Part shown: in pieces, positions 7,389 to 31,560 of the stretch
Numbering within the stretch: position 1 is the stretch's first letter
Layout: every line of letters starts with the position of its first letter
Assembly (NCBI RefSeq): GCF_024213555.1
Contig: NZ_JANAVO010000030.1
Span: 1 to 32,756, forward strand
DNA length: 32,756 nt
Source: Allokutzneria sp. A3M-2-11 16
GTDB taxonomy: Bacteria > Actinomycetota > Actinomycetes > Mycobacteriales > Pseudonocardiaceae
Reading direction: 5' to 3'
Position numbers and translations under genes: made by a program
The notes under the pieces: model-generated
What the model was told of the DNA's origin: nothing
Seen by the model: the letters and a program-made list of their open reading frames with translations, nothing else
The model's database searches: none

Positions 7389-7823
7389 TCAGCCCGCGAC
7401 GGAGACGCCCATGGAGCGGGCGCAGCCGGCGACGATCTTCTCGGCGGCGTCGACGCTGGTGGCGTTGAGGTCCGGCATCTTGCGCTCGGCGATCGCGCGC
7501 ACCTGCTCGGCGGTCAGGGTGCCACCGGACGTGTGGCCGGGCTGCTCGGAGCCCTTCTGCGCGCCCATCGCCTGACGGATCAGGAAGCTGGTCGGCGGCG
7601 TCTTGTACCGCAGCGAGTGGGTGCGGTCCTCGTAGACCGTGACCACGACGGGGAGGATCTCGCCGCGGTGCGCGGCGGTGGCCTCGTCGTACTCAAGCTT
7701 GACGCCACGGGTGTTCACACCGGTCGGACCCAGCATCTTGCCGAGGTCGACCATAGCGGCGTTGCCGGCCTCCAGTTCGAGCGTCGCCTCGAACGTCACG
7801 CGCAACTTCTTCTTGGGCGGCAT
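7389..7823 (-). CDS. Divergent ribosomal protein uL11 paralogue
   Basis: A 144-residue protein of normal L11 length. The C-terminal rRNA-binding domain is well conserved: KTPP hinge (74-77), AEQVRAIAERKMPDLNAT, DAAEKIVAGCARSMG. VTVYEDR is also kept in the N-terminal domain. The N-terminal domain is otherwise altered: where canonical L11 has the proline-rich NPAPPVGPALGQHGVNI, this protein has NAAMVDLGKMLGPTGVNT, shortened and without those prolines. In ordinary L11 that face contacts translation factors, RelA signalling and thiopeptides such as thiostrepton. It stands alone, not beside nusG or rplA, so it is an accessory copy rather than the housekeeping rplK. Start ATG 7821-7823, with an AAGGGG-like ribosome binding site 9 bases upstream. 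Function is inferred only: an alternative, possibly drug- or stress-resistant ribosomal stalk base. Confidence 0.88.
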   Translation of the reverse strand: MPPKKKLRVTFEATLELEAGNAAMVDLGKMLGPTGVNTRGVKLEYDEATAAHRGEILPVVVTVYEDRTHSLRYKTPPTSFLIRQAMGAQKGSEQPGHTSGGTLTAEQVRAIAERKMPDLNATSVDAAEKIVAGCARSMGVSVAG

Positions 7824-7982
7824 TCCGCGAACCCCTTGTCCTATTACTACTGGTGTCAACGTCAGTGGGGGAGCCTAGTCCAGCCAGCGTTAGCGGCGGT
7901 GAGCGCCCCAAGGGCTGCCGGGCAAGCCAGCAGCTCAGAGCAGTCTAACACCGCTGAGAGGCACCCCCGAACCACCCCGCGC

Positions 7983-15514: not shown

Positions 15515-16054
15515 TTAGTCACCGCCCATGCGATGAGATGCAGAAACGGCTCCTTCTTCGAGATCAATCTTTCCGTTCTCTTTCAGGTCAACGAGCGCCG
15601 ACCGCAGCCCCCTGTAGTCAACCGAAGGAGGAACGTCGACTGCCCACAGAATTCCACTCGAGTCGATCTCCCAGGAGCAGCCAGATGCAGTCAACGTAGA
15701 TTCAACGACTTCCGCCGCATCGCCACTCATGATAATTATCCGCACCGTCGAATGCCCAGACTCCGAGACAAGGCTCTCGAATACCAGCTCTCTGCGATCG
15801 TGATCGGCAACCACCCGAACCCGGTCACTCAAGGAGATCGCCTTGACATAAAATGGCACGTTGCAGATCTCCACCTCCATCGTCACCGCAGTCTTTCGAG
15901 CCCACAGACGCTCAGTCGGCGCAGGAGCCCAAGCGGCCGTGTCCGCAGGCAGGTCAAAGGCCACCTTGTACAACTTCTCAGCCTCACCCTCTCGCCTTTC
16001 TCGTGAAGGCAACTCCGGCCCGCTATGCGGCGAGGAAATCTCTGAGTTCATCAT
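15515..16054 (-). CDS. DUF4265 protein, probable cognate immunity of the HNH toxin
   Basis: 179 residues. The DUF4265 pattern is clear: KVAFDLPADTAAW...ERLWARK, MEVEICNVPFYVKAISLSDRVRVVADHD, ESGHSTVRIII, ILWAVDVP, and a C-terminal helix followed by KIDLEEGAV. The molecular function of DUF4265 is unknown. The gene begins inside the Rhs gene: its ATGATG (16049-16054) overlaps the last 32 bases of the toxin frame and is preceded by GGAAGAG, so its translation is coupled to the toxin's. This tight overlap with the HNH tip is the best argument that it is the specific immunity protein. Either of the two adjacent ATGs could be used. Confidence 0.82.
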   Translation of the reverse strand: MMNSEISSPHSGPELPSRERREGEAEKLYKVAFDLPADTAAWAPAPTERLWARKTAVTMEVEICNVPFYVKAISLSDRVRVVADHDRRELVFESLVSESGHSTVRIIIMSGDAAEVVESTLTASGCSWEIDSSGILWAVDVPPSVDYRGLRSALVDLKENGKIDLEEGAVSASHRMGGD

Positions 16055-19000
16055 CCCACTCTTCCAGCGTCTTGTTAGACTTGCTTCTGTTGCAGTTGCG
16101 ACAGGCTACCGCCCCATTATGATCCCCGCCGTGCCCCCCACGCGACTTGGGCTCGATGTGATCAATCTGAGCGTCGTCCGGACGCCCGGGAACACCAGGG
16201 GTCGAAGGCCGTCGAACAACTTCTCGGCCACAGTATTCACATTTAAGCACACCACCATTCTTTGCCCTGTTGGCTTCGTAAACCTTCTCCCTGCCCGCAT
16301 CCGTGAAGTCCATGCCGGGACGTTCGCAATTATGGTTCAGTAGCGGCATTTCACCCGTAAAGACGTAGTAGGTGTGCATGCCTTCGACGGTCAGGTTGAA
16401 GACTTGGCGGTACTCCGACGCCGAGCGGACCGCAGTGACTGGCACGAATTCCTTCGAGGGCGTCAACAGTGCATCCCCGGGAACGAGCTGCCCAGCGTCC
16501 TCCCACTGGGAGGTCTTGGCGTTCCAGAACGGGTGTCCGGCGGTCGCGGTGACGGTCGATATGGCAGGCCCAGAACCCACGGTCAGCTCGACGAGCTGCT
16601 TCGTCCCCGAACCGATGATCGTCGCGACCACAGCACGTGCGCCGGTCTCCCCGGTCACAGGATCGGTCGACAGGACTTGATCGCCGAGCTTCACCTCCTC
16701 GATGGGTTTCCGCGAGCCGTTGGCCATCAGCACCAACGTCCCGGGCACGAAGCTGTTGCACGGTGGCTCGTTGCGCCGAGCGTTCTCGACGATGGAGTCG
16801 AGGCGGCGCAAGGTGGCACGTGCCGCGGCGACCTCGTCGATCCAGCGGTTGGCGGCACTGATCGCGGCGGCGATGCGCCCGGCACTGCCGATGACCTTGA
16901 ACAGACGACCCCACGGGATCAGGCCGAAGCACGCGAACAGGTCGCCGCCGGTGAAACAAGACTTGACGTCGTTGATGCCGATGAGATCACCGACGATGTC
17001 GCCCGCGTGGTCCAGGACGACATCCCACCAACCCTTCTTCGAAGCGGCCAGGGCACGGGCGCGCTCGTACTCCGCGCGGCTGGCACCCTCCCGAGCGAGA
17101 GCGGCGGCGACGTGGTCGCTGATGTCGCGTGTCGGACCGGAGATGCGTTCGGAGCGGCCGTTCTTCTTGTGGTGGTAACGACTTCCGTCGGGCATGCGCT
17201 CGATGTGGCCGCCGCCAGGTGTCGGGATGACGACGTGCTCGCAGCGGTCGTCGATGCACATCTGCATCGGCTGCAACCCGTCGGGGTCGCTCATGGTGAT
17301 CGGCGAGTTGTTGGCGTAGGAGTAACCGTTGGTCTGCTGCGGATCGGCGAGGTCCATCACCGGGTCGACGGACAGGAACCGTCCGGTACCAGGGTCGTAC
17401 TCGCGTGCGCCGAGATGGGTCAGGCCAGTGGAATCCTGTGTGCCACCAACGAATCCCTTGTCGTCGGGCCACGTCCCGGTGCCGCCGCGGAGGTTGCCGA
17501 AGGGGTCGTGGTAGCGCTGGGTCACGGGTTGGCTGTTCTTGGCGAACGCCTCCTTCCCGGTGCCCTGGTGGTCATCGGTCAACAGCGTCAGGCCGCCCCA
17601 CGACGTCCGCATGGCGACGGTGTCCGAACCGTGGTTGTAGTAGCGCTTGCCTCGGACGACGTCGAGGTCCTTCTCCAGGACGAGTTCGGTTCCGCCGAGG
17701 TAGAGCACGGTGGACTTCGGTTCGCGCTTGAGCAGCCTGGAGCCGTCCGCGCCGTAGACGTACTCGGAGGTCTGCCCGTTGGCGTGGGTCACCTTCGCCA
17801 GGCGGCCCTCGGAGTTCCAGTCGAGCTTCTGCGCGTCACCGGCGATCTTGCGGGTGGTCGTCTCGCCGTTGGCGTTGTAGCCGAACTCGTCGCGCGACTC
17901 GCCGGTCGGGCCCTTCTGGGTCACCGCGCGCAGCGTGTGCGGTTGCGGCTCACCGACCTTCGGGTACTCATAGGTCCGGGTCGTGTCGCCCTGCGCGGTG
18001 TGCTTGGTCTCCGTCTTGCGGTTGCCGAGCTTGTCGTAGCTGAAGTCCACCCAGTACGGCGCGGGACCGCCCAATGTGGACACTGCCGGGTCAGGAGCAC
18101 AGTCGCTTGTGGACGGTGTGAACGCCTTGGTAAGTCGGCGCAGGTGGTCGTAGCGGAAGCACTGCGTGTCGGTGGCGCGCTTCTCCCCCTTGTCCGTGAG
18201 CTTGGTGATGTTGCCCGCGGGGTCGTAGGAGTACGTGCGCTCGTAGATCCGCCACATGTCGCCGGACAGGCGGTTGCCCATCTCGGTCTCCAGGCGGCGG
18301 GTGCCCTCCTCGTAGAAGTTGATCCGTTCGATGAGCTGATCACCTTCGCCGAGAAACACTTTCAGCGTCTCGCCGTACTTGGTGTACATGTGCTCTTGCC
18401 CGTAGACCGACAGGCCGTGGGTCTTGGTGAGCTGCCCCAGCTCGTTGTGCTCGTACTTCACTTCCTCTGCGGCGAGCCCACCCGCGGCGGGCAGGTCGTT
18501 CGATCGCACGAGCCCCGTGTTGGGCGTGTACTTCGTGCCGAACACATAGGTTCCCGCGAGCTTCCCCTCCGCCGGGGGAATGACGACCTGCCGCGCTTCA
18601 GGACGGTTCTGGGCGTCATAGGCCGTGACGCTCTCCGTGTACGCGTGACCGTTGACGAACCGCGTGGAACTGGTCGGCAAGCCCTTCTTTAGCGTGTCGA
18701 AGGTCCATTCGGCGAGCTTGGTCGACCCTTCGTACATCGCCGTCTTACGGCGCAGATCGTCGTACTCGTACGTCAGCGTCTGACTGCGCGCGTCTGTGGT
18801 CGTCTTGACCTGGTCGAGCGCGTCGTAGGTGTACGTCGTGGTGCCCTTGTCGCGGTCGATGTCCTTGCGCTTGCGCCCGAGCTCGTCGTACTCGTAGCGC
18901 CATTGGCTGCCCGCGGCGTCGGTGATGACTTCAAGCCGACCAAAGCGGTCATAGCCGTACTTGGTCACGTCCGCCGGACCAGTGGTGGTCCTGCCCTGGT

Positions 19001-22000
19001 ACTGGTGCCGCTCCGTCACCTGCCCCTGCGCGTTGGTGACGACGGTCGTCGGGGTGTCTCCCGCAGGCGGGACAAGGTGTGTGCGGTCGCCGCCGTAGAC
19101 CGTCGACGTGGCCCACTGCTCGACACCGAGCTTGCGATAGACCGCCTTCGTCGCCCTACCCATCTCGTCGTACTCGGTGATGGTCTGGTTCGGCAGGTTG
19201 TTGTCGAGCACGCCGAGCAGTTCGGGCTTCGGGTTCTCGTCGTTGTAGTACGCGCCGTTCGCTTTCGCGACCAGACCGCGGTCGTCGTAGATGCTGTCGG
19301 TGATCAGGCGTCCGCCCGCGACGGTCGGCGTCTGGTTCTGCCGAAGCCGCATAAGGCCGTCGTAGAGCGCGTATGACGTCGCGTAGGTGTTGTCCTCGCG
19401 CAGCACCTTCGTTGCTACGACAACGGGTTTGTCCGGCGCGTAGGTATAGGCGAACTCACGCGACGGAGTCTGCTTCGCCTCCTTCGACCTTCCTGGCCCC
19501 CACACACGCGCGGTGCGCCCCAACGGGTCGTAGTCGATGTCAACGCGTTCCTTGTTCGGGCCCACCTCCGTAACCGGCTGAGCCCAAGCGGGCTCAACGG
19601 TGTTCACCGAGACATGCCCGCGAGGATTCGTCGTGGTCACAGTTCGCGCGGCGAAGCCGGAAGCAGGCACGAAGGCCGTTGTCACCTTCGCGTTCGCGGC
19701 GTCGACCGCTTCAACGGCGCGGCCATAGGCGTCGTACTTGGTTCGCGCGACGTCTTGATAGCCGTCCTTGGTCCAGCGCTGTGCGGTGGTCACCTCACCA
19801 CGCGTCGGCGGTGTTCCGAACGCCTTGTTGTCGTACAAGGAACGCACGTCGCTGACGATGTCCGCGTTGGTGCCGTCGCCCTTCGCGCACGGAAGCGCGA
19901 CAGTGCGCACCTGCGACGCGTAATTCAACATCCACGCGCCCTCATTGCGCGCGTACGTGGTGCGCGTGCACTTCTCGTCACCGGCAACATCGATGTCGCC
20001 CGCATCGTCGACCTTGGTGGCGATCCCCTGCTCGTTGAACTCCGTGGAGACCTGTGTCCTGCGGAACTTTCCCTTCTCCAGCAAGGTTTTTCCGCGAACG
20101 GACTCGGTGTTCAGCAGGAACGCCTGCTTGTCCCCGTTGGTCGCGGTCGGTCCCTGGACCTTGGGCTCGTTGATCGAACCGGAGACGATCTTGCCCTTGT
20201 CGTGCTGCACGGTCTCCCGGACGAACCCCTGGAGCCGCTCGTGGTCGCGCAGCTTGCCGCCGTCGGTGTCGGGCACCCAGGCTTCGCGTTTGCCACCACC
20301 GGGAAGCGGATCGCCGTCCATACCGCGCATGTAGCGCGTGTCCGTCAGCGTCAACGTCTTTCCGGGCTCACCGGCCCACGTGCGCACCCAGCGGTACCCG
20401 CGCCAAGACGAGTAGGTCCGGTGCTTCATCTCGGCGAACTCGTTCTCGTCGAAGTGCCACGCGGCGCCCTCGTGGTACTCGTAGTGCATCTTCTTCAGCG
20501 CCGACGCGCCGGTGCGGTCGCCTTCGACGACCACGCGCACGACGTACTTGTGGAACCAGTCGAGGATCGGCTCGGGTGCGTGCTCCGGCGTCCAGAACAT
20601 CGGGTAGCACCGCATGGTGTTGTGCTCGGCGTTGGGCGGCATCTTGCCGTCGCGCTTGCATTCTGGCTCGGCGTAGCCGATCTCCGTGTAGCCACCGGCC
20701 TCGTTGATGATGCGCCGCAGTCGCGGGCGTTCGATGGGGGCCAAGCCCTCGTTCGCGTCGACCCGGTTGGACATGGAGACGCCGTGGAACACCAGCTCCG
20801 GCACGGACGCCTCACCGCCCACGTGTCCCGTTCTCGTGATCCCGGCCAGCCACAGTGCGGGATCGAGGCCATCCGTCGTCGCCGGGAAGAACTGGCGCAG
20901 GCTCCAGGAATCGACCGCGTGCCACTTCAGCGCGTCGCCGGTGTTGTCCCTGCGGATCTCCGTGACGACCTTCGTCAAGCGCTTGCGGCTGAAGAACGAT
21001 GGCGCGAGCCGGTTGGTGCACTGCTCCCCCGAAGCACACAGGCGGTCAAATGGCACGTCGGGCCAGGACTTCGCGGTGTCCTTGTTCAGCTGACCGGGCT
21101 CGCAACGGAACGTCGGAGTCGGCACGCACCGCTCCGTGTAGTCGAAGCGCACCTGGTTGGGCGCCGCGCCGTACACCGCGTCCGAGCGGAGTCCGTACTC
21201 GATCCGGGTGAGGAAACCACCGCGGGTGTAGGCGGTCGCGTCCGCGGGCTTGGCGTTGCGGCCGTAGTGGTTGATCTCCGGCTCGTAGTAGTAGGTCGTG
21301 ACGTTGCCCTTGGGATCGACGACGTAGTCGAGGTTCCACCGCCACGCCTGGTTGCACCACGAGTCGGCGAACGCCGCCTTGTTGCACGGCTCGTTGCCGT
21401 TGTTGCCGTACACGGGAACCGACCACGTGGAGCGGGTTTCCGGCTTTCCCTCCGCCCAGCCGGGAAGCCGGTTCATGCCAAGGAAGTACTGGGTTCCGTC
21501 GGTGGTGGTGACCTTCCAGTGCTCACCGTTGTCGTCACCATTGGCGCCGCCGAAGATCTTCTCGACCCGAGAGCCGTCGTCCCGCTTCGGCCGCCACACC
21601 GTGTCGGAGACCTTCACCAGCTCCGAGGTGGTTCCACCGAGGCTCAGGGTGGCGTTGTCCGTCGCCCAACACAGGTCACCGGTCTTCGTCTGGCCCTGGT
21701 TGCCACCCAGGTCCTGGGCGCATCCCTTGTAGCGCCGCTCGATGGAGCCGCCCGCCGCCAACTCCCAGCCGTCGCCCGCCACCGACGCCTGGTTGTTCGT
21801 GGAGCTGGTGCGGCCGTCGATGCTGCCGGAGGAGTACCCGAGCGAGACCGCCGGGCCCTTCGCGCCTGGCGCCGGAGGCAGCCGGAACGGGTAGGAGTAG
21901 CTGAAATCACCGGAAGAGCCGCCCGCGGACCAACTTCCCGCCGGTGACAGCGGTGTCGCCTCGTACGTGCCGCCCGAACCGGAACCCGCTGCGGCCGCGG

Positions 22001-22634
22001 CCAAGACCGCCCCGGACGGCACCTCCGCGGTGAGGGTTCGCTTGGTCGCGTTGTTGTCGGTCCGGACCGGCGTGCTCTTCCGGCACTCGGCCTTCTCCGG
22101 TGTGGTCAGCGCGCACTCGGGCAGCAGGTGGAAGCCGAGACGAGAACCGTACGCACCACCCAGCGCGTTCTCAAACGCCTTGTAGTCCAGTCGAACCGAG
22201 AGTGGACCGTCCACACCGGACACTCGGAGCAGTGTTCCGGAGACGCCCGCGGCGACGGCCTGCTTCTGGTCGAACGTCTCAACCTGGACCTTGCCCCCGT
22301 TCTGCTGACGAGCCCGCGCCGATTCGGGCCTGCCGACGGAGACCGGCGTGCGCCCGGCTTGGCGGAGCTGCGCGCCGGGAGCCTGCGCCCCGAGGTCGAC
22401 CTCGGCCTTCGCGGCCGCGGGCCAGGCGGGCACCGGGGCCTTCCTGTTGAGGAGTGGCTGGAGTTCGTTGCCGGGCAAGGGTTGCGCAGGAACGGGCGTG
22501 CCGGGAACGACGCGTTCCTTCTGCAACTCCACCACACGGTTGGGCGCGCTGAGCGCCTGCGGTGTCAGCGCGACACCGGACACGACGAGCGAGGCCGCGA
22601 CAGCCGCCGCGAGCACGCGAAGACCACGAATCAC
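16023..22634 (-). CDS. Secreted Rhs polymorphic toxin with PT-Hint and C-terminal HNH nuclease
   Basis: A 2203-residue protein. Order: Sec signal peptide (1 to about 30), an N-terminal region with the actinobacterial Rhs block SYSYPFRLPPAPG...DGWELAAGGSIERRY (about 245-310), many YD repeats (about 1000-1700, e.g. YEYDELGRKRK), the Rhs core motif AREYDPGTGRFLSVDP ending at SDPDG (to 1786), a hydrophobic helical pre-toxin linker (1787-1958), a pretoxin Hint domain (1959-2102: C1959, TAGHPFW, terminal NHN before C2103) and an HNH nuclease tip (2103-2203). The tip has two CxxC pairs (C2132/C2135, C2178/C2181), IDHIEP with H2159, and N2173. The Rhs shell should encase the tip, Hint self-cleavage release it, and the nuclease cut target DNA. 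GTG start 22632-22634 follows AAAGGG. The final 32 bases overlap the DUF4265 gene. Confidence 0.93.
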   Translation of the reverse strand: MIRGLRVLAAAVAASLVVSGVALTPQALSAPNRVVELQKERVVPGTPVPAQPLPGNELQPLLNRKAPVPAWPAAAKAEVDLGAQAPGAQLRQAGRTPVSVGRPESARARQQNGGKVQVETFDQKQAVAAGVSGTLLRVSGVDGPLSVRLDYKAFENALGGAYGSRLGFHLLPECALTTPEKAECRKSTPVRTDNNATKRTLTAEVPSGAVLAAAAAGSGSGGTYEATPLSPAGSWSAGGSSGDFSYSYPFRLPPAPGAKGPAVSLGYSSGSIDGRTSSTNNQASVAGDGWELAAGGSIERRYKGCAQDLGGNQGQTKTGDLCWATDNATLSLGGTTSELVKVSDTVWRPKRDDGSRVEKIFGGANGDDNGEHWKVTTTDGTQYFLGMNRLPGWAEGKPETRSTWSVPVYGNNGNEPCNKAAFADSWCNQAWRWNLDYVVDPKGNVTTYYYEPEINHYGRNAKPADATAYTRGGFLTRIEYGLRSDAVYGAAPNQVRFDYTERCVPTPTFRCEPGQLNKDTAKSWPDVPFDRLCASGEQCTNRLAPSFFSRKRLTKVVTEIRRDNTGDALKWHAVDSWSLRQFFPATTDGLDPALWLAGITRTGHVGGEASVPELVFHGVSMSNRVDANEGLAPIERPRLRRIINEAGGYTEIGYAEPECKRDGKMPPNAEHNTMRCYPMFWTPEHAPEPILDWFHKYVVRVVVEGDRTGASALKKMHYEYHEGAAWHFDENEFAEMKHRTYSSWRGYRWVRTWAGEPGKTLTLTDTRYMRGMDGDPLPGGGKREAWVPDTDGGKLRDHERLQGFVRETVQHDKGKIVSGSINEPKVQGPTATNGDKQAFLLNTESVRGKTLLEKGKFRRTQVSTEFNEQGIATKVDDAGDIDVAGDEKCTRTTYARNEGAWMLNYASQVRTVALPCAKGDGTNADIVSDVRSLYDNKAFGTPPTRGEVTTAQRWTKDGYQDVARTKYDAYGRAVEAVDAANAKVTTAFVPASGFAARTVTTTNPRGHVSVNTVEPAWAQPVTEVGPNKERVDIDYDPLGRTARVWGPGRSKEAKQTPSREFAYTYAPDKPVVVATKVLREDNTYATSYALYDGLMRLRQNQTPTVAGGRLITDSIYDDRGLVAKANGAYYNDENPKPELLGVLDNNLPNQTITEYDEMGRATKAVYRKLGVEQWATSTVYGGDRTHLVPPAGDTPTTVVTNAQGQVTERHQYQGRTTTGPADVTKYGYDRFGRLEVITDAAGSQWRYEYDELGRKRKDIDRDKGTTTYTYDALDQVKTTTDARSQTLTYEYDDLRRKTAMYEGSTKLAEWTFDTLKKGLPTSSTRFVNGHAYTESVTAYDAQNRPEARQVVIPPAEGKLAGTYVFGTKYTPNTGLVRSNDLPAAGGLAAEEVKYEHNELGQLTKTHGLSVYGQEHMYTKYGETLKVFLGEGDQLIERINFYEEGTRRLETEMGNRLSGDMWRIYERTYSYDPAGNITKLTDKGEKRATDTQCFRYDHLRRLTKAFTPSTSDCAPDPAVSTLGGPAPYWVDFSYDKLGNRKTETKHTAQGDTTRTYEYPKVGEPQPHTLRAVTQKGPTGESRDEFGYNANGETTTRKIAGDAQKLDWNSEGRLAKVTHANGQTSEYVYGADGSRLLKREPKSTVLYLGGTELVLEKDLDVVRGKRYYNHGSDTVAMRTSWGGLTLLTDDHQGTGKEAFAKNSQPVTQRYHDPFGNLRGGTGTWPDDKGFVGGTQDSTGLTHLGAREYDPGTGRFLSVDPVMDLADPQQTNGYSYANNSPITMSDPDGLQPMQMCIDDRCEHVVIPTPGGGHIERMPDGSRYHHKKNGRSERISGPTRDISDHVAAALAREGASRAEYERARALAASKKGWWDVVLDHAGDIVGDLIGINDVKSCFTGGDLFACFGLIPWGRLFKVIGSAGRIAAAISAANRWIDEVAAARATLRRLDSIVENARRNEPPCNSFVPGTLVLMANGSRKPIEEVKLGDQVLSTDPVTGETGARAVVATIIGSGTKQLVELTVGSGPAISTVTATAGHPFWNAKTSQWEDAGQLVPGDALLTPSKEFVPVTAVRSASEYRQVFNLTVEGMHTYYVFTGEMPLLNHNCERPGMDFTDAGREKVYEANRAKNGGVLKCEYCGREVVRRPSTPGVPGRPDDAQIDHIEPKSRGGHGGDHNGAVACRNCNRSKSNKTLEEWDDELRDFLAA

Positions 22635-25167: not shown

Positions 25168-26598
25168 GTGAGCAGGGACGCGCACTACGACGACGTCGGG
25201 CAGGGCTATCTGGAGAAGCGGCAGCTGCGCACCGGGCGGGCCGGGTGGGTGCTGCTGGCCGGGCTCGGAGTCTCGTACGTGATCTCCGGGGACTTCTCGG
25301 GGTGGAACTCCGGGCTGGCGCAGGGCGGCTGGGGCGGGCTGCTGCTGGCCACCGCGTGCATGGCGCTGATGTACACCTGCATGGTCTTCGGCCTCGCGGA
25401 GATGGCTTCGGCGATGCCAGTGGCGGGCGCGGGGTACGGCTTCGCGCGGCGGGCGCTCGGGCCGCTGGGCGGGTTCGCGACGGGGACGGCGATCCTGATC
25501 GAGTACACGATCGCGCCCGCCGCGATCGTGGTGTTCATCGGCGGCTACGTGGAGTCGCTCGGACTGTTCGGGCTGACGAACTCCTGGCCGGTGTACCTGG
25601 TCTGCTACGCGATCTTCGTGGGCGTGCACCTCTACGGCGTCGGCGAGGCGCTGAAGCTGATGTTCGTGATCACCGGGGTCGCCGTCGTCGGCCTGCTGAT
25701 CTTCGTCATCGGCATGCTGCCCGCGGTCGACTGGGCGAAGCTCTTCGACATCGCGCCGACGAATGCCTTCGGTGCCAGCACGTTCCTGCCGTTCGGCATC
25801 GCCGGGGTGCTGGCCGCGTTCGTCTACGGGATCTGGTTCTTCCTCGCGGTGGAAGGGGTTCCGCTCGCCGCGGAGGAAGCTCGCGACCCGTCGAAGGACA
25901 TGCCGAGGGGCATCGTCGCGGCGATGCTGGTGCTGCTGGTGTTCGCGGCGCTGATCCTCGTCGTGGCGCCCGGCGGCGCGGGCAGCAAGACGCTGATGAC
26001 CTCCGACAACCCGTTGGTGCACGCGCTGCGCGCGGCCTACGGCGGCAACTCGGTGCTGGCGGGCGTGGTCAACTACATCGGGCTGGCGGGGCTCGTCGCG
26101 AGCTTCTTCTCGATCATCTACGGATACTCGCGGCAGCTGTTCGCCCTGTCCCGCGCGGGATACCTGCCGCGGGCGCTGTCGCTGACCGGGCGCAGGAAGA
26201 CCCCGTACCTGGCGTTGATCATCCCGGCCACGATCGGTTTCGCGCTCGCGGCGATCACCCAGAACGGCGCGAAGCTGATCAACATCGCGGTGTTCGGCGC
26301 GGCCGTGTCCTACGTGCTGCTGATGGTCTCGCACATCGTGCTCCGCGTGCGCGAGCCGAACCTGCCCAGGCCCTACCGCACCCCCGGCGGCGTCGTGACG
26401 ACCGGCGTCGCGCTCGTCCTCGCGTGCGCGGCCGTGGTGGCCACCTTCCTCGTGGACATCGCCGCCGCCGGGGTCACGGCGGGGATTCTCGTTGCCGCGC
26501 TTGCCTATTTCTGGTTCTACAGTCGGCATCGCCTTGTCGCGCAAGCACCGGAAGAGGAGTTCGAGGCGATCCGGCGGGCCGAGGCCGACCTGGAATGA
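25168..26598 (+). CDS. APC-family permease, ethanolamine-permease type
   Basis: A 476-residue inner-membrane transporter with about 12 transmembrane helices. The N-terminal WVLLAGLGVSYVISGDFSGWNSGLAQGGWGG segment and the MPVAGAGYGFARRALGP motif are characteristic of the ethanolamine permease branch of the amino acid/polyamine/organocation superfamily. The substrate is inferred from family and context: the next genes encode a gamma-glutamyl ligase and oxidising enzymes. Start GTG 25168 with GGAGG 6 bases upstream. The stop overlaps the ATG of the regulator gene (ATGA). A related amine cannot be ruled out by sequence alone. Confidence 0.87.
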   Translation: MSRDAHYDDVGQGYLEKRQLRTGRAGWVLLAGLGVSYVISGDFSGWNSGLAQGGWGGLLLATACMALMYTCMVFGLAEMASAMPVAGAGYGFARRALGPLGGFATGTAILIEYTIAPAAIVVFIGGYVESLGLFGLTNSWPVYLVCYAIFVGVHLYGVGEALKLMFVITGVAVVGLLIFVIGMLPAVDWAKLFDIAPTNAFGASTFLPFGIAGVLAAFVYGIWFFLAVEGVPLAAEEARDPSKDMPRGIVAAMLVLLVFAALILVVAPGGAGSKTLMTSDNPLVHALRAAYGGNSVLAGVVNYIGLAGLVASFFSIIYGYSRQLFALSRAGYLPRALSLTGRRKTPYLALIIPATIGFALAAITQNGAKLINIAVFGAAVSYVLLMVSHIVLRVREPNLPRPYRTPGGVVTTGVALVLACAAVVATFLVDIAAAGVTAGILVAALAYFWFYSRHRLVAQAPEEEFEAIRRAEADLE

Positions 26599-27314
26599 AC
26601 ATCGATCACACGGTGTTCCGCCCGGTGCGCAGCGGGAACGCCTTCGAGGAGGCCGTGGAGCGGATCCTCCAGTCGATCAAGCTGGGCATCGTGCCGACGG
26701 GCGAGCGCCTGCCGCCGGAGCGCGAACTGGCCACCCGGCTCGGGGTCAGCCGGATGACGCTGCGCGAGGCGATCCGGGCGCTGCAACAGGCGGGCTACGT
26801 CGAGTCGCGGCGCGGGCGCTTCGGCGGCACCTTCGTCGCCTACCGGGCCAGCGCGGCGCCGCACGACCCGGACGCGCTCGCCAAGGTCGTCGCGAACATG
26901 TCGACGGACCTGGACGACGTGCTGACCTACCGCTGGGTGCTGGAGGTCGGCGCGGCCCGCTCCGCCGCGGCGCGGACGCTCACCGCTCAGGAGCGGGACC
27001 ACCTGGTCACGATCCAGGCCGAGGTGGAGCGGTCCGACGAGGGAACCTACCGACAGCTCGACTCGCGGCTGCACCTGGCGATCGCCGAGATCACCGGATC
27101 GCCCTCGCTGGCCTCCTCGGTGGCCGACAACCGGATGCGGGTCAACGAGCTGCTGGACGCGATTCCCTTGTTGCAGCACAACATCGAGCACTCGCACGCG
27201 CAGCACCGGGGCATCGTGCAGGCCATCCTGTCCGGCAACGCCGAACGGGCGGGCACCGCGATGGCCGAGCACCTGGACGGGACCGCGGCGCTCTTGCGCG
27301 GCTTCCTGTCCTGA
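26595..27314 (+). CDS. FadR-subfamily GntR transcriptional regulator
   Basis: 239 residues. The N-terminal winged helix-turn-helix (about 12-75) includes GERLPPERELATRLGVSRMTLREAIRALQQAGYVESRRGR, the standard GntR signature. The C-terminal all-helical FCD-type domain (about 95-235) carries DSRLHLAIAEITGSPSL and an H-x3-H element (HSHAQHRGIV), whose histidines commonly bind a metal and the effector. It overlaps the permease gene by ATGA and lies 35 bases before the ligase gene. Matching inverted-repeat operators flank it, so it probably represses the operon and is released by ethanolamine, a glutamylated intermediate or another pathway signal. Confidence 0.92.
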   Translation: MNIDHTVFRPVRSGNAFEEAVERILQSIKLGIVPTGERLPPERELATRLGVSRMTLREAIRALQQAGYVESRRGRFGGTFVAYRASAAPHDPDALAKVVANMSTDLDDVLTYRWVLEVGAARSAAARTLTAQERDHLVTIQAEVERSDEGTYRQLDSRLHLAIAEITGSPSLASSVADNRMRVNELLDAIPLLQHNIEHSHAQHRGIVQAILSGNAERAGTAMAEHLDGTAALLRGFLS

Positions 27315-27338
27315 AATAAGGTCCATTTTCAGACCATT
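27315..27338 (-). promoter_or_regulatory. GntR-type operator 2 (upstream of the gamma-glutamyl ligase)
   Basis: On the minus strand AATGGTCT, five bases, then TGGACC; the inverted pair is GGTC-N8-GACC. It fills the gap between the regulator stop and the ribosome binding site GGAGG (27339-27343) of the ligase gene. It may control an internal promoter or act as a roadblock. Confidence 0.6.
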
Positions 27339-27349
27339 GGAGGCAACCA

Positions 27350-28708
27350 GTGCCGCACCCCCCGATGTCCGTCAGCCAGCTGCGGGACCTGGTCGACCGC
27401 GGTGAGATCGACACCGTCGTGCTGGCGATGACCGACATGCAGGGCCGGTTGCAGGGCAAGCGCCTGGACGCGCGGCACTTCCTGGACGACGTGCTGCCGC
27501 ACCACGCGGAGGCGTGCAACTACCTGCTCGCCGTCGACGTCGAGATGTCCACTGTGGACGGATACGCGATGTCCTCGTGGGAGACCGGCTACGGCGACTT
27601 CGTCCTCGACCCCGACCTCGGCACGCTCCGCCGCACCCCGTGGCAGCCGGGCACCGCGCTGGTGTTCGCCGACGTCATCTGGGAGGACGGCAGCCCGGTC
27701 GCGGCGTCGCCGAGGCAGATCCTGCGCGGCCAGCTGGAGCGGCTCGCCGAGCGCGGGCTGACCGCGATGGTCGGCACGGAGCTGGAGTTCATCGTCTTCC
27801 GTGACAGCTACGAGCAGGCGTGGGACAAGGGCTACGACAAGCTCGTCCCGGCCAACCAGTACAACGTGGACTACTCGCTGCTGGGCACCGCGCGGGTGGA
27901 GCCGCTGCTGCGGGCCATCCGCAACGGCATGGCGGGCGCGGGGATGAAGGTGGAGTCGGCCAAGGGCGAGTGCAACCTCGGCCAGCACGAGATCGTCTTC
28001 CGCTACGCCGACGCGCTGACCACGTGCGACAACCACGGCCTGTACAAGAACGGCGCCAAGGAGATCGCCGCGCAGCAGGGCATGAGCCTGACGTTCATGG
28101 CCAAGTACGACCAGCGCGAGGGCAACTCCTGCCACATCCACATCAGCCTGCGCGGCACGGACGGCGAGCTGGTCTTCACCGGTGACCATCCACATGGTAT
28201 GTCCACAATGGCCGAACACTTCCTCGCGGGCCAGCTCGCCGCGCTGCGCGAACTGACGCTGCTGTTCGCGCCGAACATCAATTCCTACAAGCGTTTCGTG
28301 CCGGGGAGCTTCGCACCGACCGCGGTCGCGTGGGGCCGGGACAACCGCACGTGCGCGCTGCGGCTCGTCGGCAAGGGCGCGGGGCTGCGCATCGAGAACC
28401 GGGTCCCCGGCGGAGACGTGAACCCCTACCTCGCGGTGGCCGGGCTGATCGCGGCCGGGCTGCACGGGATCGACAACGAGCTTCCGCTGACGGACGAGCT
28501 GACGGGCAACGCGTACGCCAGCGACGCCGAGCGCGTGCCGACGACGCTGCGCGATGCCGCGGAGTTGTTCCGTGCCAGCGACATCGCGCGTTCCGCGTTC
28601 GGCGATGAGGTGGTCGAGCACTACGTCAACGCCGCCCGGGTGGAGCAGGCGGCCTTCGACGCCGCGGTGACGGACTGGGAGCGGGTGCGTGGTTTCGAAC
28701 GCCTCTGA
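27350..28708 (+). CDS. Glutamine-synthetase-like gamma-glutamyl ligase (GlnA4-type, ethanolamine)
   Basis: 452 residues with the glutamine synthetase fold. Active-site elements are kept: ELEFIVF (metal-binding glutamates), AKGECNLGQHEI (second metal site), GNSCHIHISL (catalytic-loop histidine), NSYKRF with PGSFAPT, and RIENRVPGGDVNPYLA. Unlike nitrogen-assimilating GlnA, it belongs to the amine-glutamylating branch. In Streptomyces coelicolor GlnA4 makes gamma-glutamylethanolamide from ethanolamine, glutamate and ATP, while GlnA3 acts on polyamines. The ethanolamine-type permease, SDR and aldehyde dehydrogenase beside it favour ethanolamine here. GTG start 27350 with GGAGG 6 bases upstream. 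It overlaps the next gene by 20 bases. Confidence 0.88.
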   Translation: MPHPPMSVSQLRDLVDRGEIDTVVLAMTDMQGRLQGKRLDARHFLDDVLPHHAEACNYLLAVDVEMSTVDGYAMSSWETGYGDFVLDPDLGTLRRTPWQPGTALVFADVIWEDGSPVAASPRQILRGQLERLAERGLTAMVGTELEFIVFRDSYEQAWDKGYDKLVPANQYNVDYSLLGTARVEPLLRAIRNGMAGAGMKVESAKGECNLGQHEIVFRYADALTTCDNHGLYKNGAKEIAAQQGMSLTFMAKYDQREGNSCHIHISLRGTDGELVFTGDHPHGMSTMAEHFLAGQLAALRELTLLFAPNINSYKRFVPGSFAPTAVAWGRDNRTCALRLVGKGAGLRIENRVPGGDVNPYLAVAGLIAAGLHGIDNELPLTDELTGNAYASDAERVPTTLRDAAELFRASDIARSAFGDEVVEHYVNAARVEQAAFDAAVTDWERVRGFERL

Positions 28709-29408
28709 AGTTCCCGTCATCGGCATCAGCACGTACCTGGAGGAGACGAGCTGGGGCGACTGGAGCCGCCGCGCCGCGCTGCTGCCGGAGAACTACCTCA
28801 CGGCGGTGACGAAGGCCGGGGCGATCCCTGTGCTGCTGCCGCCGATGGACGTCGACGTGGCGACCGTACTGCGGCGGCTGGACGGGCTGTTGCTCGCCGG
28901 AGGCGCGGACCTGACGCCGGAAAGCTATGGCGCCCAAGCACATCCGAAGACCATCGGCGTCCGGCCCGAGCGGGACGGCTGGGAACACCGGCTGCTGGAA
29001 GCCGCGCTGGCGGTGGACATGCCGGTGCTCGCGGTGTGCCGGGGCGCCCAGCTGCTGAACGTCGCGTGCGGCGGGACGCTGCACCAGCACCTGCCGGAGG
29101 TGGTCGGCAACGACACCCACCGCATCTCCCCCGGCGTGTTCGGTCCGGTGTCCGTGCGACTCGACGAGCAGCAGCTGCCGGGAAGTCTCCTTGGCTCGCA
29201 AGTGAAAGTGCGCTGCTACCACCACCAGTCGCTGGACGCGCTCGGTTCCGGGCTCGTCGCGAGCGGCTGGGCCGAGGACGGTACGGTCGAAGCGGTCGTG
29301 CTGCCGGACCGCGAGTTCGTGGTGGGTGTGCAGTGGCACCCCGAGGAAACCCTTGACGACGTGCGGCTGTTCGCCGCTTTCACCGAGGCTGCCAGGAGGC
29401 CGTCATGA
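28689..29408 (+). CDS. Class-I glutamine-amidotransferase-like gamma-glutamyl hydrolase (PuuD-like)
   Basis: 239 residues, peptidase C26/PuuD branch. The catalytic triad is intact: nucleophile C117 in VLAVCRGAQLLN, and H217 and E219 in VGVQWHPEE. LLAGGADLTPESYG is the usual oxyanion-side loop. PuuD cleaves gamma-glutamyl-GABA in putrescine breakdown; here the likely substrate is a gamma-glutamyl-glycine-type product of ethanolamine oxidation, releasing glutamate and glycine. The GTG start at 28689 lies inside the end of the ligase gene, preceded by GGGAG. The stop overlaps the aldehyde dehydrogenase ATG. Confidence 0.88.
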   Translation: MVSNASEVPVIGISTYLEETSWGDWSRRAALLPENYLTAVTKAGAIPVLLPPMDVDVATVLRRLDGLLLAGGADLTPESYGAQAHPKTIGVRPERDGWEHRLLEAALAVDMPVLAVCRGAQLLNVACGGTLHQHLPEVVGNDTHRISPGVFGPVSVRLDEQQLPGSLLGSQVKVRCYHHQSLDALGSGLVASGWAEDGTVEAVVLPDREFVVGVQWHPEETLDDVRLFAAFTEAARRPS

Positions 29409-30790
29409 AGGCCGAAGACCCGCTTGCGCGGTCGAGCATCGACGTGGTCAACCCCGCCACAGAGCAGGTGGTGACCGAGGTCGAGCTGCTGGGCGAGGCC
29501 GAGACCGACGCGGCGATCGAGCGCGCGGTCAAGGCAGGTCCGGCCTGGCGCGCTGTGGCGCCCGGCGACCGCGCCCGGCTGCTGGCCCGCTTCGCCGACG
29601 CCGTAGACGCCGACCTGGAGCACCTGGCGCGCCTGGAGGTCACCAACTCCGGGCACACGCTGGGCAACGCGCGGTGGGAGGCGGGCAACGTCCGCGACGT
29701 GCTCCGGTACTTCTCCGGTGCGCCAGAACGCTTGTTCGGCAAGCAGATCCCCGTCGCAGGCGGGTTGAACGTCACCTTCCGCGAACCGCTCGGCGTCGTC
29801 GGGATCATCGTGCCGTGGAACTTCCCGATGCCGATCGCCTCGTGGGGTTTCGCTCCGGCGCTCGCGGCGGGCAACACGGTCGTGCTCAAGCCCGCCGAGC
29901 TGACCCCGCTGACCGCGCTCCGGCTCGCCGAGCTGGCCCGCTCCGCCGGTATCCCCGAGGACGTCTTCCAGGTGCTCCCGGGCCGTGGATCGGTTGTCGG
30001 GCAGCGGTTCGTGACGCATCCTGCCGTGCGCAAGCTGGTGTTCACCGGCTCCACGACGGTCGGCAAGCAGGTCATGGCGGGCTGCGCGGAGCAGGTGAAG
30101 CGGGTGACCCTGGAGCTGGGCGGGAAGAGCGCCAACATCGTCTTCGCCGACTCCGATCTGGAGAAGGCGGCCGCGACCGCGCCGTACGGGGTCTTCGACA
30201 ACGCGGGGCAGGACTGCTGCGCGCGTTCGCGAATCCTGGTGCAGCGCGGTGTCTACGACAAGTTCCTGGAGCTGCTCGAACCAGCGGTGCGCGGTGTTCG
30301 CGTCCAAGATCCGTCCACTGAGGACAGCGAGATGGGCCCGCTGATCTCGGCGACGCAGCGGGACCGCGTCGCGTCCTATGTGGACCCTGACCGGATCGCA
30401 TTCCAGGGAACGTGCCCCTCAGGTTCGGGATTCTGGTATCCGCCAACGGTTCTGCTGCCTGTCGACTCACAGGATCGGGCGTGGCGCGAGGAGGTCTTCG
30501 GCCCGGTGGTGTCCGTGCTGCCGTTCGAGGACGAGGCGGACGCCGTGCGGCTGGCCAACGACACCGAGTACGGCCTGTCCGGTTCGATCTGGACCCGTGA
30601 CGTCGGGCGGGCGCTGCGCGTCTCCCGCGCGGTCGAGGCGGGCAACCTCTCGGTGAACTCGCATTCCTCGGTGCGGTTCTGGACGCCGTTCGGCGGTTTC
30701 AAGCAGTCCGGTCTCGGCCGGGAGCTCGGCCCCGACGCGCTGGACGGGTTCACCGAGGTCAAGAACGTCTTTGTGGCAACGGAGGAATGA
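29405..30790 (+). CDS. NAD(P)-dependent aldehyde dehydrogenase
   Basis: 461 residues of the ALDH superfamily. Cofactor and catalytic elements are complete: PWNFPMPI, FTGSTTVGK, LELGGKS with general base E237, and NAGQDCCARSR with nucleophile C271. In this operon it should oxidise the gamma-glutamylated aminoaldehyde to the acid. The ATG at 29405 has GGAGG 5 bases upstream and overlaps the hydrolase stop (ATGA). It is slightly shorter than many ALDHs (about 480-500 residues) but lacks no core motif. An alternative aldehyde substrate is possible. Confidence 0.92.
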   Translation: MKAEDPLARSSIDVVNPATEQVVTEVELLGEAETDAAIERAVKAGPAWRAVAPGDRARLLARFADAVDADLEHLARLEVTNSGHTLGNARWEAGNVRDVLRYFSGAPERLFGKQIPVAGGLNVTFREPLGVVGIIVPWNFPMPIASWGFAPALAAGNTVVLKPAELTPLTALRLAELARSAGIPEDVFQVLPGRGSVVGQRFVTHPAVRKLVFTGSTTVGKQVMAGCAEQVKRVTLELGGKSANIVFADSDLEKAAATAPYGVFDNAGQDCCARSRILVQRGVYDKFLELLEPAVRGVRVQDPSTEDSEMGPLISATQRDRVASYVDPDRIAFQGTCPSGSGFWYPPTVLLPVDSQDRAWREEVFGPVVSVLPFEDEADAVRLANDTEYGLSGSIWTRDVGRALRVSRAVEAGNLSVNSHSSVRFWTPFGGFKQSGLGRELGPDALDGFTEVKNVFVATEE

Positions 30791-30795
30791 GGGTC

Positions 30796-31560
30796 ATGCA
30801 ACGTCTCCAGGACAGGGTCGCCGTGATCACCGGCGGGGCCAGCGGTATTGGGCTCGCCACCGCAAGGCGCTTCGCCGAGGAGGGCGCGCGGGTCGTCATC
30901 GTCGACCTCGACTCCTCCGCGGGCGAGGCCGCAGCCAAGGAGGTCAACGGCGACTTCCAGTACGCCGACGTGGCCAACGAGGAGGACGTGCGCCGGTTGT
31001 ACGCGGCCGTGCACGGCATGCACGGGCGCATCGACATCGCGTTCAACAACGCGGGCATCTCACCGCCCGAGGACGACTCGATCCTCACCACCGGTATCGA
31101 GGCGTGGCAGCGGGTCCAGCAGATCAACCTGACGTCGGTGTACCTGTGCTGCAAGTACGTGCTGCCGTACATGCGGGAGGCGGGCAAGGGCTCCATCATC
31201 AACACCGCCTCGTTCGTCGCCGTGATGGGCGCCGCGACCTCGCAGATCTCCTACACCGCGTCCAAGGGCGGCGTCCTCGCGATGAGCCGGGAGCTCGGTG
31301 TGCAGTTCGCCCGCGAGGGCATCCGCGTCAACGCGCTGTGCCCCGGCCCGGTGAACACCCCGCTGCTGCGCGAGCTGTTCGCCAAGGACCCCGAGCGCGC
31401 CGCGCGCCGCCTCGTCCACGTCCCGCTGGGCCGCTTCGCCGAGGCCACCGAGATCGCCGCCGCCGTCGCGTTCCTGGCCAGCGATGACTCCTCGTTCATC
31501 ACCGCGTCGCAGTTCCTCGTGGACGGTGGCATCTCCGGCGCCTACGTCACCCCGCTCTAG
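30796..31560 (+). CDS. Short-chain dehydrogenase/reductase
   Basis: 254 residues, classical SDR. The Rossmann motif TGGASGIG (12-19), NNAG (84-87), catalytic S139, and YTASK with Y153 and K157 are all present, as is the PG motif CPGPVNTP. In the operon it is the natural candidate for oxidising the hydroxyl of gamma-glutamylethanolamide to the aldehyde used by the preceding dehydrogenase; this assignment is inference. ATG 30796 is chosen because it is 10 bases from GGAGG and starts at the conserved N-terminus. The ATG at 30787 overlaps the previous stop but sits one base from that ribosome binding site. Confidence 0.92.
   Translation: MQRLQDRVAVITGGASGIGLATARRFAEEGARVVIVDLDSSAGEAAAKEVNGDFQYADVANEEDVRRLYAAVHGMHGRIDIAFNNAGISPPEDDSILTTGIEAWQRVQQINLTSVYLCCKYVLPYMREAGKGSIINTASFVAVMGAATSQISYTASKGGVLAMSRELGVQFAREGIRVNALCPGPVNTPLLRELFAKDPERAARRLVHVPLGRFAEATEIAAAVAFLASDDSSFITASQFLVDGGISGAYVTPL

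Follow-up and report, generated by a model that had tools for sequence, protein, structure and literature searches.

Thiopeptides of the thiostrepton type bind between the N-terminal prolines of the ribosomal protein uL11, which stack on the drug, and the nucleotides A1067 and A1095 of 23S rRNA. Changes of either nucleotide or of the uL11 prolines are reported to give thiostrepton resistance, and the natural resistance of eukaryotic ribosomes is attributed there, most probably, to differences in their uL11 (PMC5960728). Resistance changes described in Bacillus megaterium include P22S, P23L and G25V (PMC9769715), and an L11 paralogue of the micrococcin clusters, TclQ, has been proposed to replace the native L11 for immunity (PMC12724294). 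The present analysis concerns a gene on the minus strand of contig NZ_JANAVO010000030.1 of Allokutzneria sp. A3M-2-11 16 (positions 1 to 32,756, the whole 32,756-nucleotide stretch hereafter being the window), which encodes a divergent kind of uL11 that we label L11B. The best overall explanation of our observations, to which we assign a probability of roughly 0.62, is that a divergent and probably transferred uL11 has displaced the universal one repeatedly, leaving a drug-binding cleft without its proline face and ribosomes that should be intrinsically resistant to thiopeptides.

The L11B gene starts with an ATG at position 7823, and its product is complete. The protein contains both domains of the family, each recovered above the curated Pfam cut-offs (PF00298, 3.2e-24; PF03946, 1.9e-12), and scores 126.7 bits against the model of bacterial L11, TIGR01632, which is below the equivalog cut-off of 141.85, a threshold also missed by 4 of 14 well-known control genomes. 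Its AlphaFold model has a mean predicted local distance difference test score of 82, and the best Foldseek matches of the model in the PDB are L11s, with query template modelling scores of 0.76–0.85 in the top three; the sequence itself also matches PDB L11 chains. The window gene product is a full-length but divergent uL11 and not the canonical equivalog.

In the genome from which the window comes (G000; 8.8 Mb, 43 contigs, 100% complete), whole-genome profile searches with PF00298 and with TIGR01632 each recover one L11, and TIGR01632 likewise recovers one in each of two sister species (G001 and G002, the latter a single contig). An earlier note, made from the sequence of the window, had suggested confirming a canonical rplK elsewhere in the genome; none was found in G000. 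The same note correctly placed the gene far from the nusG-rplK-rplA operon, which here, however, no longer contains rplK: nusG and rplA lie on a contig other than that of L11B, and the 86 nucleotides between the nusG stop and the rplA start lack rplK, as does the corresponding junction in both sister species. This gap was parsed in 34 genomes: in 21 it spans 584–777 nucleotides and holds rplK, whereas in 13 it spans 76–186 nucleotides and lacks the gene; G037, in which rplA lies at a contig end, was excluded from this count. The short-gap genomes comprise all 12 genomes of the family in which L11B is the only L11, together with G013, a 74% complete genome with no L11 found that is counted for the junction only. 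Given the sole L11 recovered by two models and the rplK-less nusG-rplA junction, L11B is a permanent replacement in G000 rather than an extra subunit, and it is very probably the working uL11 of the cell.

A GTGGGAG...ACCAC element before rplA is left in all 13 shortened gaps (for example L034:3719-3804), and the same pattern is seen in 14 of the 21 canonical regions. According to a review, an L1 autoregulatory site precedes the L1 gene in Actinobacteria (PMC10931766), and the element is possibly this site. An Rfam search of the rplK-less region yielded one tRNA above cut-off and one match under the gathering score.

L11B is the only L11 in 12 of 390 Pseudonocardiaceae genomes (G000–G002, G010, G041–G045, G052, G394 and G395), which belong to six genera, are 92–100% complete and include five single-contig assemblies. 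Seven of the 390 gave no L11 match, and three others (G073, G223 and G322), divergent by score, proved to contain broken or partial canonical L11s and were not counted. In an even sample of 394 genomes across the class, all at least 95% complete, 389 have an L11 match; L11B was recognized in three of them (G000, G587 and G552), a count that does not cover the second L11 copy of two further genomes with two matches, and G000 is the sole L11B-only genome of the sample. Ten of the named carriers among the best 80 matches of a scan were searched whole, with completeness not reported. Of these, Paractinoplanes rishiriensis (Micromonosporaceae) and Winogradskya humida, both of the Actinoplanes group, have a single L11, which is L11B, and the other eight (two Dactylosporangium, a Micromonospora, a Kibdelosporangium, two Kutzneria, Pseudonocardia nigra and Amycolatopsis kentuckyensis) have two. 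No L11B was seen on plasmids, where 78 records had a match, all less than 60% identical to the window protein (best 8 of the 78 examined). Three relatives, 36–50% identical, were found in viral contigs.

An L11 tree, which the earlier note had proposed as a check, separates L11B from canonical L11 with support of 100/99. Within L11B, all sole-copy versions, including the two from the Actinoplanes group, form a clade termed B1, with support of 96/96 that becomes 99/96 once the loop columns are removed. None of the 14 B1 genomes has a canonical L11 match, and all 29 genomes with the other L11Bs, termed B2, have one. On a tree of rplA and nusG for the 34 genomes, the rplK deletions require 6 changes (5–6 in bootstraps), at least 3 of which are forced by well-supported branches. 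A single loss of rplK in one clade is rejected on this tree by the approximately unbiased test (p = 0.010), with the caveat that the test presumes a group named before the tree was seen; the species tree is built on two proteins and the L11 tree on 144 columns. Distances between L11Bs, taken relative to those of rplA and nusG, are smaller in the sole-copy genomes (ratio 1.68, 66 pairs) than in those with both L11s (2.42, 105 pairs), the pattern that stronger constraint on the sole copy would produce. Canonical rplK was apparently displaced several times by B1, which probably spread by horizontal transfer, and repeated displacement, probably after such transfer, is the simplest and best reading of these patterns.

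With regard to the route alone, a single old duplication in Actinomycetota followed by differential loss of either copy might be invoked in place of the horizontal spread of B1, given that B2 is found in many genera of Pseudonocardiaceae and also in Micromonosporaceae. We consider this less likely, since the genomes of the single clade B1 are dispersed over the species tree, since the other 15 of the 16 genomes in the genus of G052 all have a canonical-level L11 match that G052 lacks, and since L11B is rare across the class, having been identified in 3 of 394 genomes.

The window protein has a remodelled N-terminal loop, in which NAAMVDLGKMLGP occupies the place of the canonical xANPAPPVGPALGQ and is one residue shorter, PPVGP being changed to VDLGK; the AlphaFold model of the window protein predicts a helix at residues 24–34. 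By the numbering of E. coli L11, the prolines P20, P22, P23 and P26 are replaced in the window protein by A, V, D and K, respectively, and residue 19 is absent. Aligned with 29 canonical actinobacterial L11s, all 43 L11Bs examined have D or E in place of P23 and K in place of P26, and 42 have lost P22, which only G352 retains. P20 is lost in 26 of the 43 (14/14 B1 and 12/29 B2), residue 19, a single loop residue, is absent throughout, and no L11B has an intact PPVGP motif. The TPP and GxARSMG signatures of the RNA-binding domain are retained in all 43. This confirms the description in the earlier note of an L11 paralogue that has kept its rRNA-binding domain and lost the N-terminal prolines.

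The claim in that note that no system of this kind had been described goes too far, as TclQ provides a precedent (PMC12724294). The TclQ/TclT proteins of the micrococcin P1 and thiocillin clusters of Bacillota are, like L11B, L11 paralogues with an altered drug-contacting proline motif. TclQ, however, is an accessory protein with a milder change, whereas B1 genomes have lost the canonical gene, and TclQ lies on the canonical side of the L11 tree, on a long branch, with L11B on the other side. Given the different branch, the different change, the absence of a thiopeptide gene among 13 window proteins and the lack of a canonical partner in B1, L11B is not a TclQ member, though it plausibly works in the same way. 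The L11 of pBac115 keeps P20, P22 and P23 (PPVG) and changes P26 to T, unlike L11B with its loss of P23 and P26 (and of P22 in 42 of 43) and its shortened loop; it also adjoins a thiazolyl-peptide gene and a YcaO gene, none of which was seen beside the window L11B. Canonical uL11 (rplK, TIGR01632) and L11B are alike in being full-length, two-domain proteins with the same predicted fold and a C-terminus that is conserved for rRNA binding, but L11B scores below the TIGR01632 cut-off, is encoded outside the nusG-rplA operon, lacks PPVGP and lies across the 100/99 branch. The rplK point mutants resistant to thiostrepton or micrococcin, such as P22S and P23L (PMC9769715), are changed in the same residues, but they are laboratory mutants, whereas the L11Bs are natural, clade-wide variants altered in several residues. 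The 23S methylation at A1067 that gives thiostrepton resistance concerns the same drug site but acts on the RNA (PMC5960728). A literature search for an L11 paralogue or replacement found nothing describing L11B in the portions of the sources available; among these, one lists rplK with the genes whose duplication or incongruence marks producers (PMC9290621), and another reports a thiopeptide producer in Actinokineospora (PMC11406533), to which we make no link from the present genomes.

In the proposed mechanism, the L11B lineage, present in Pseudonocardiaceae and Micromonosporaceae, has in its B1 branch taken the place of canonical rplK. Its C-terminal domain would bind the GTPase-associated centre of 23S rRNA (H43/H44) as usual, and its N-terminal domain would offer VDLGK instead of the PPVGP face, so that the thiazole rings of thiostrepton-type drugs would lose their stacking surface. 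Hence B1 ribosomes are predicted to be intrinsically resistant to thiopeptides. The thiopeptide resistance proposed in the earlier note is thus retained as a reasonable prediction from a conserved rRNA-binding domain lacking the proline face. Escape from thiopeptides is a likely driver of the displacement, at about even odds. L11 is regarded as central to the activation of the stringent factor. A broader generalization, which we advance tentatively, is that a transferable uL11 variant has repeatedly supplanted the universal protein and has founded lineages in which the GTPase-associated centre, with its factor binding and stringent-response signalling, operates in the absence of the conserved proline face. 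In E. coli, changes of A1067 alone are reported to leave RelA activation by starved complexes largely intact (PMC5829649).

The analysis shows the single copy, the loss of rplK from its slot, the clade structure, the conservation of the RNA-binding domain and purifying selection; entry of L11B into ribosomes, thiopeptide resistance, thiopeptides as its driver and transfer as its route are inferred. Several observations weigh against the favoured explanation. In Paractinoplanes rishiriensis and Winogradskya humida, single-copy status comes without a reported completeness and with the nusG-rplA junction unread. A 23S pattern was matched in 17 of 21 genomes searched, and in the 30 loci of those 17 that were read, G000 and all others except G010 (16 of 17) retain both A1067 and A1095; no 23S match was obtained in the sole-L11B genomes G045 and G052 among the 21. 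Pfam scans of 13 window proteins, among them the products of the two genes flanking L11B, revealed no thiopeptide gene, the rest of the genome not having been searched. In favour of the explanation, A1067G occurs together with U1097A in the sole-L11B genome G010, whose draft assembly gave a single matching 23S locus (L231). That locus is otherwise family-like, with 86–92% identity to ten relatives over the aligned parts. An exact 20-base pattern for a base other than A at 1067 recovered G010 alone among the 390 family genomes, a pattern that misses variants with a second change and a set in which the number with assembled 23S is not determined. Given that 12 of the 390 are sole-L11B genomes, A1067G would fall in one of them by chance about 3% of the time, which is suggestive only.

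Some of the same observations would favour a change of the loop unrelated to antibiotics, arising from a different way of dealing with EF-G, IF2 or Rel or from drift, with thiopeptide resistance a side effect or absent. In addition to the unchanged A1067 of G000 and the lack of thiopeptide genes noted above, the replacements in L11B extend beyond the drug face to both domains, affecting 24 of 85 strongly conserved canonical positions: the N-terminal domain accounts for 49 of these (18 replaced, 16 kept) and the C-terminal domain for 36 (6 replaced, 17 kept), with the remainder mixed. This also fits drift or another adaptation. The near-invariant loss of precisely P22, P23 and P26 across the 43 L11Bs, and the fact that the only non-A1067 genome of the 390 is a sole-L11B one, argue against this alternative, to which we give about one chance in four in informal terms.

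L11 is dispensable in several bacteria, and L11-null laboratory mutants are viable. This lends some credence to the notion that the ribosomes in question are devoid of L11 and that L11B has a non-ribosomal role. However, the RNA-binding signatures are kept in all 43 L11Bs, the B1 genes are under purifying selection (dN/dS, the ratio of nonsynonymous to synonymous substitution rates, is 0.05–0.33 in nine close pairs), and the loss of rplK accompanies one particular L11B clade, making such a role very improbable. The swap-in subunit beside a canonical L11 that the earlier note envisaged is the arrangement of all 29 B2 genomes examined but, unless the assemblies are wrong, is refuted for G000, there being no second L11 found in G000, G001 or G002 and an empty rplK slot in all three; a sole L11 gene was the outcome that the note itself had named as refuting its proposal.

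Gene neighbourhoods, compared over flanks of about 1.5–8 kb, differ between the two types. A small ABATE/zf-CGNR-like protein is encoded 0–27 nucleotides downstream of L11B in 10 of the 29 B2 loci (for example L038:4423-4842) but is absent from all 14 B1 loci, and this gene accompanies B2 in both Pseudonocardiaceae and Micromonosporaceae. The likeness is weak, below curated cut-offs, to a family that Pfam words as a "putative stress-induced transcription regulator". Of the 29 B2 loci, 11 have a gene for serine hydroxymethyltransferase downstream (for example L038:4849-6222) and 9 a gene for a gamma-carbonic-anhydrase-like hexapeptide protein upstream, and no common neighbourhood was found around B1 loci of different genera. 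These associations hint that B2 might be an accessory expressed only under certain conditions, and that B1 might have arisen when such an accessory became the sole subunit.

The features of the locus are collected in the table below. The 66 nucleotides upstream of the gene are identical in G002 and similar, with an indel, in G001.

Table. Features of the L11B locus in window coordinates
Feature	Coordinates	Strand	Basis
L11B (B1-type uL11), 144 aa	7389..7823	minus	sole L11 gene found in G000
Remodelled N-terminal loop/helix, residues 21-33 (NAAMVDLGKMLGP)	7725..7763	minus	alignment with 29 canonical and 42 other L11Bs
C-terminal rRNA-binding domain (PF00298) with GCARSMG; TPP just before the domain	7398..7604	minus	Pfam and alignment
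Upstream region, 66 nt; probable promoter/leader (inferred)	7824..7889	minus	TTGACA present; promoter reading by eye

Elsewhere in the window, positions 16023-22634 on the minus strand encode a protein of 2203 aa in which Pfam recognizes RHS repeats, a pretoxin HINT domain and, at the C-terminus, an HNH endonuclease domain, a polymorphic-toxin layout. On the plus strand, positions 25168-31560 contain in a row genes for an amino acid permease, a GntR-type regulator (identified by eye), a glutamine synthetase, a peptidase C26/glutamine amidotransferase, an aldehyde dehydrogenase and a short-chain dehydrogenase, which resemble a gamma-glutamylation cluster for polyamine use.

The proline face of L11 is seen as central to the way thiopeptides act, and the genomes described here, several of them single-contig, belong to bacteria whose only L11 lacks it. 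The role of this face thereby becomes testable in natural ribosomes, and intrinsic thiopeptide resistance is predicted for named soil actinomycetes. It is also uncommon for a core ribosomal protein to be supplanted time and again by a divergent relative, as the L11B lineage would appear to have done. If this is true, it would amount to a natural proof that the proline face is dispensable and to a built-in resistance, by target replacement, to a whole class of antibiotics.
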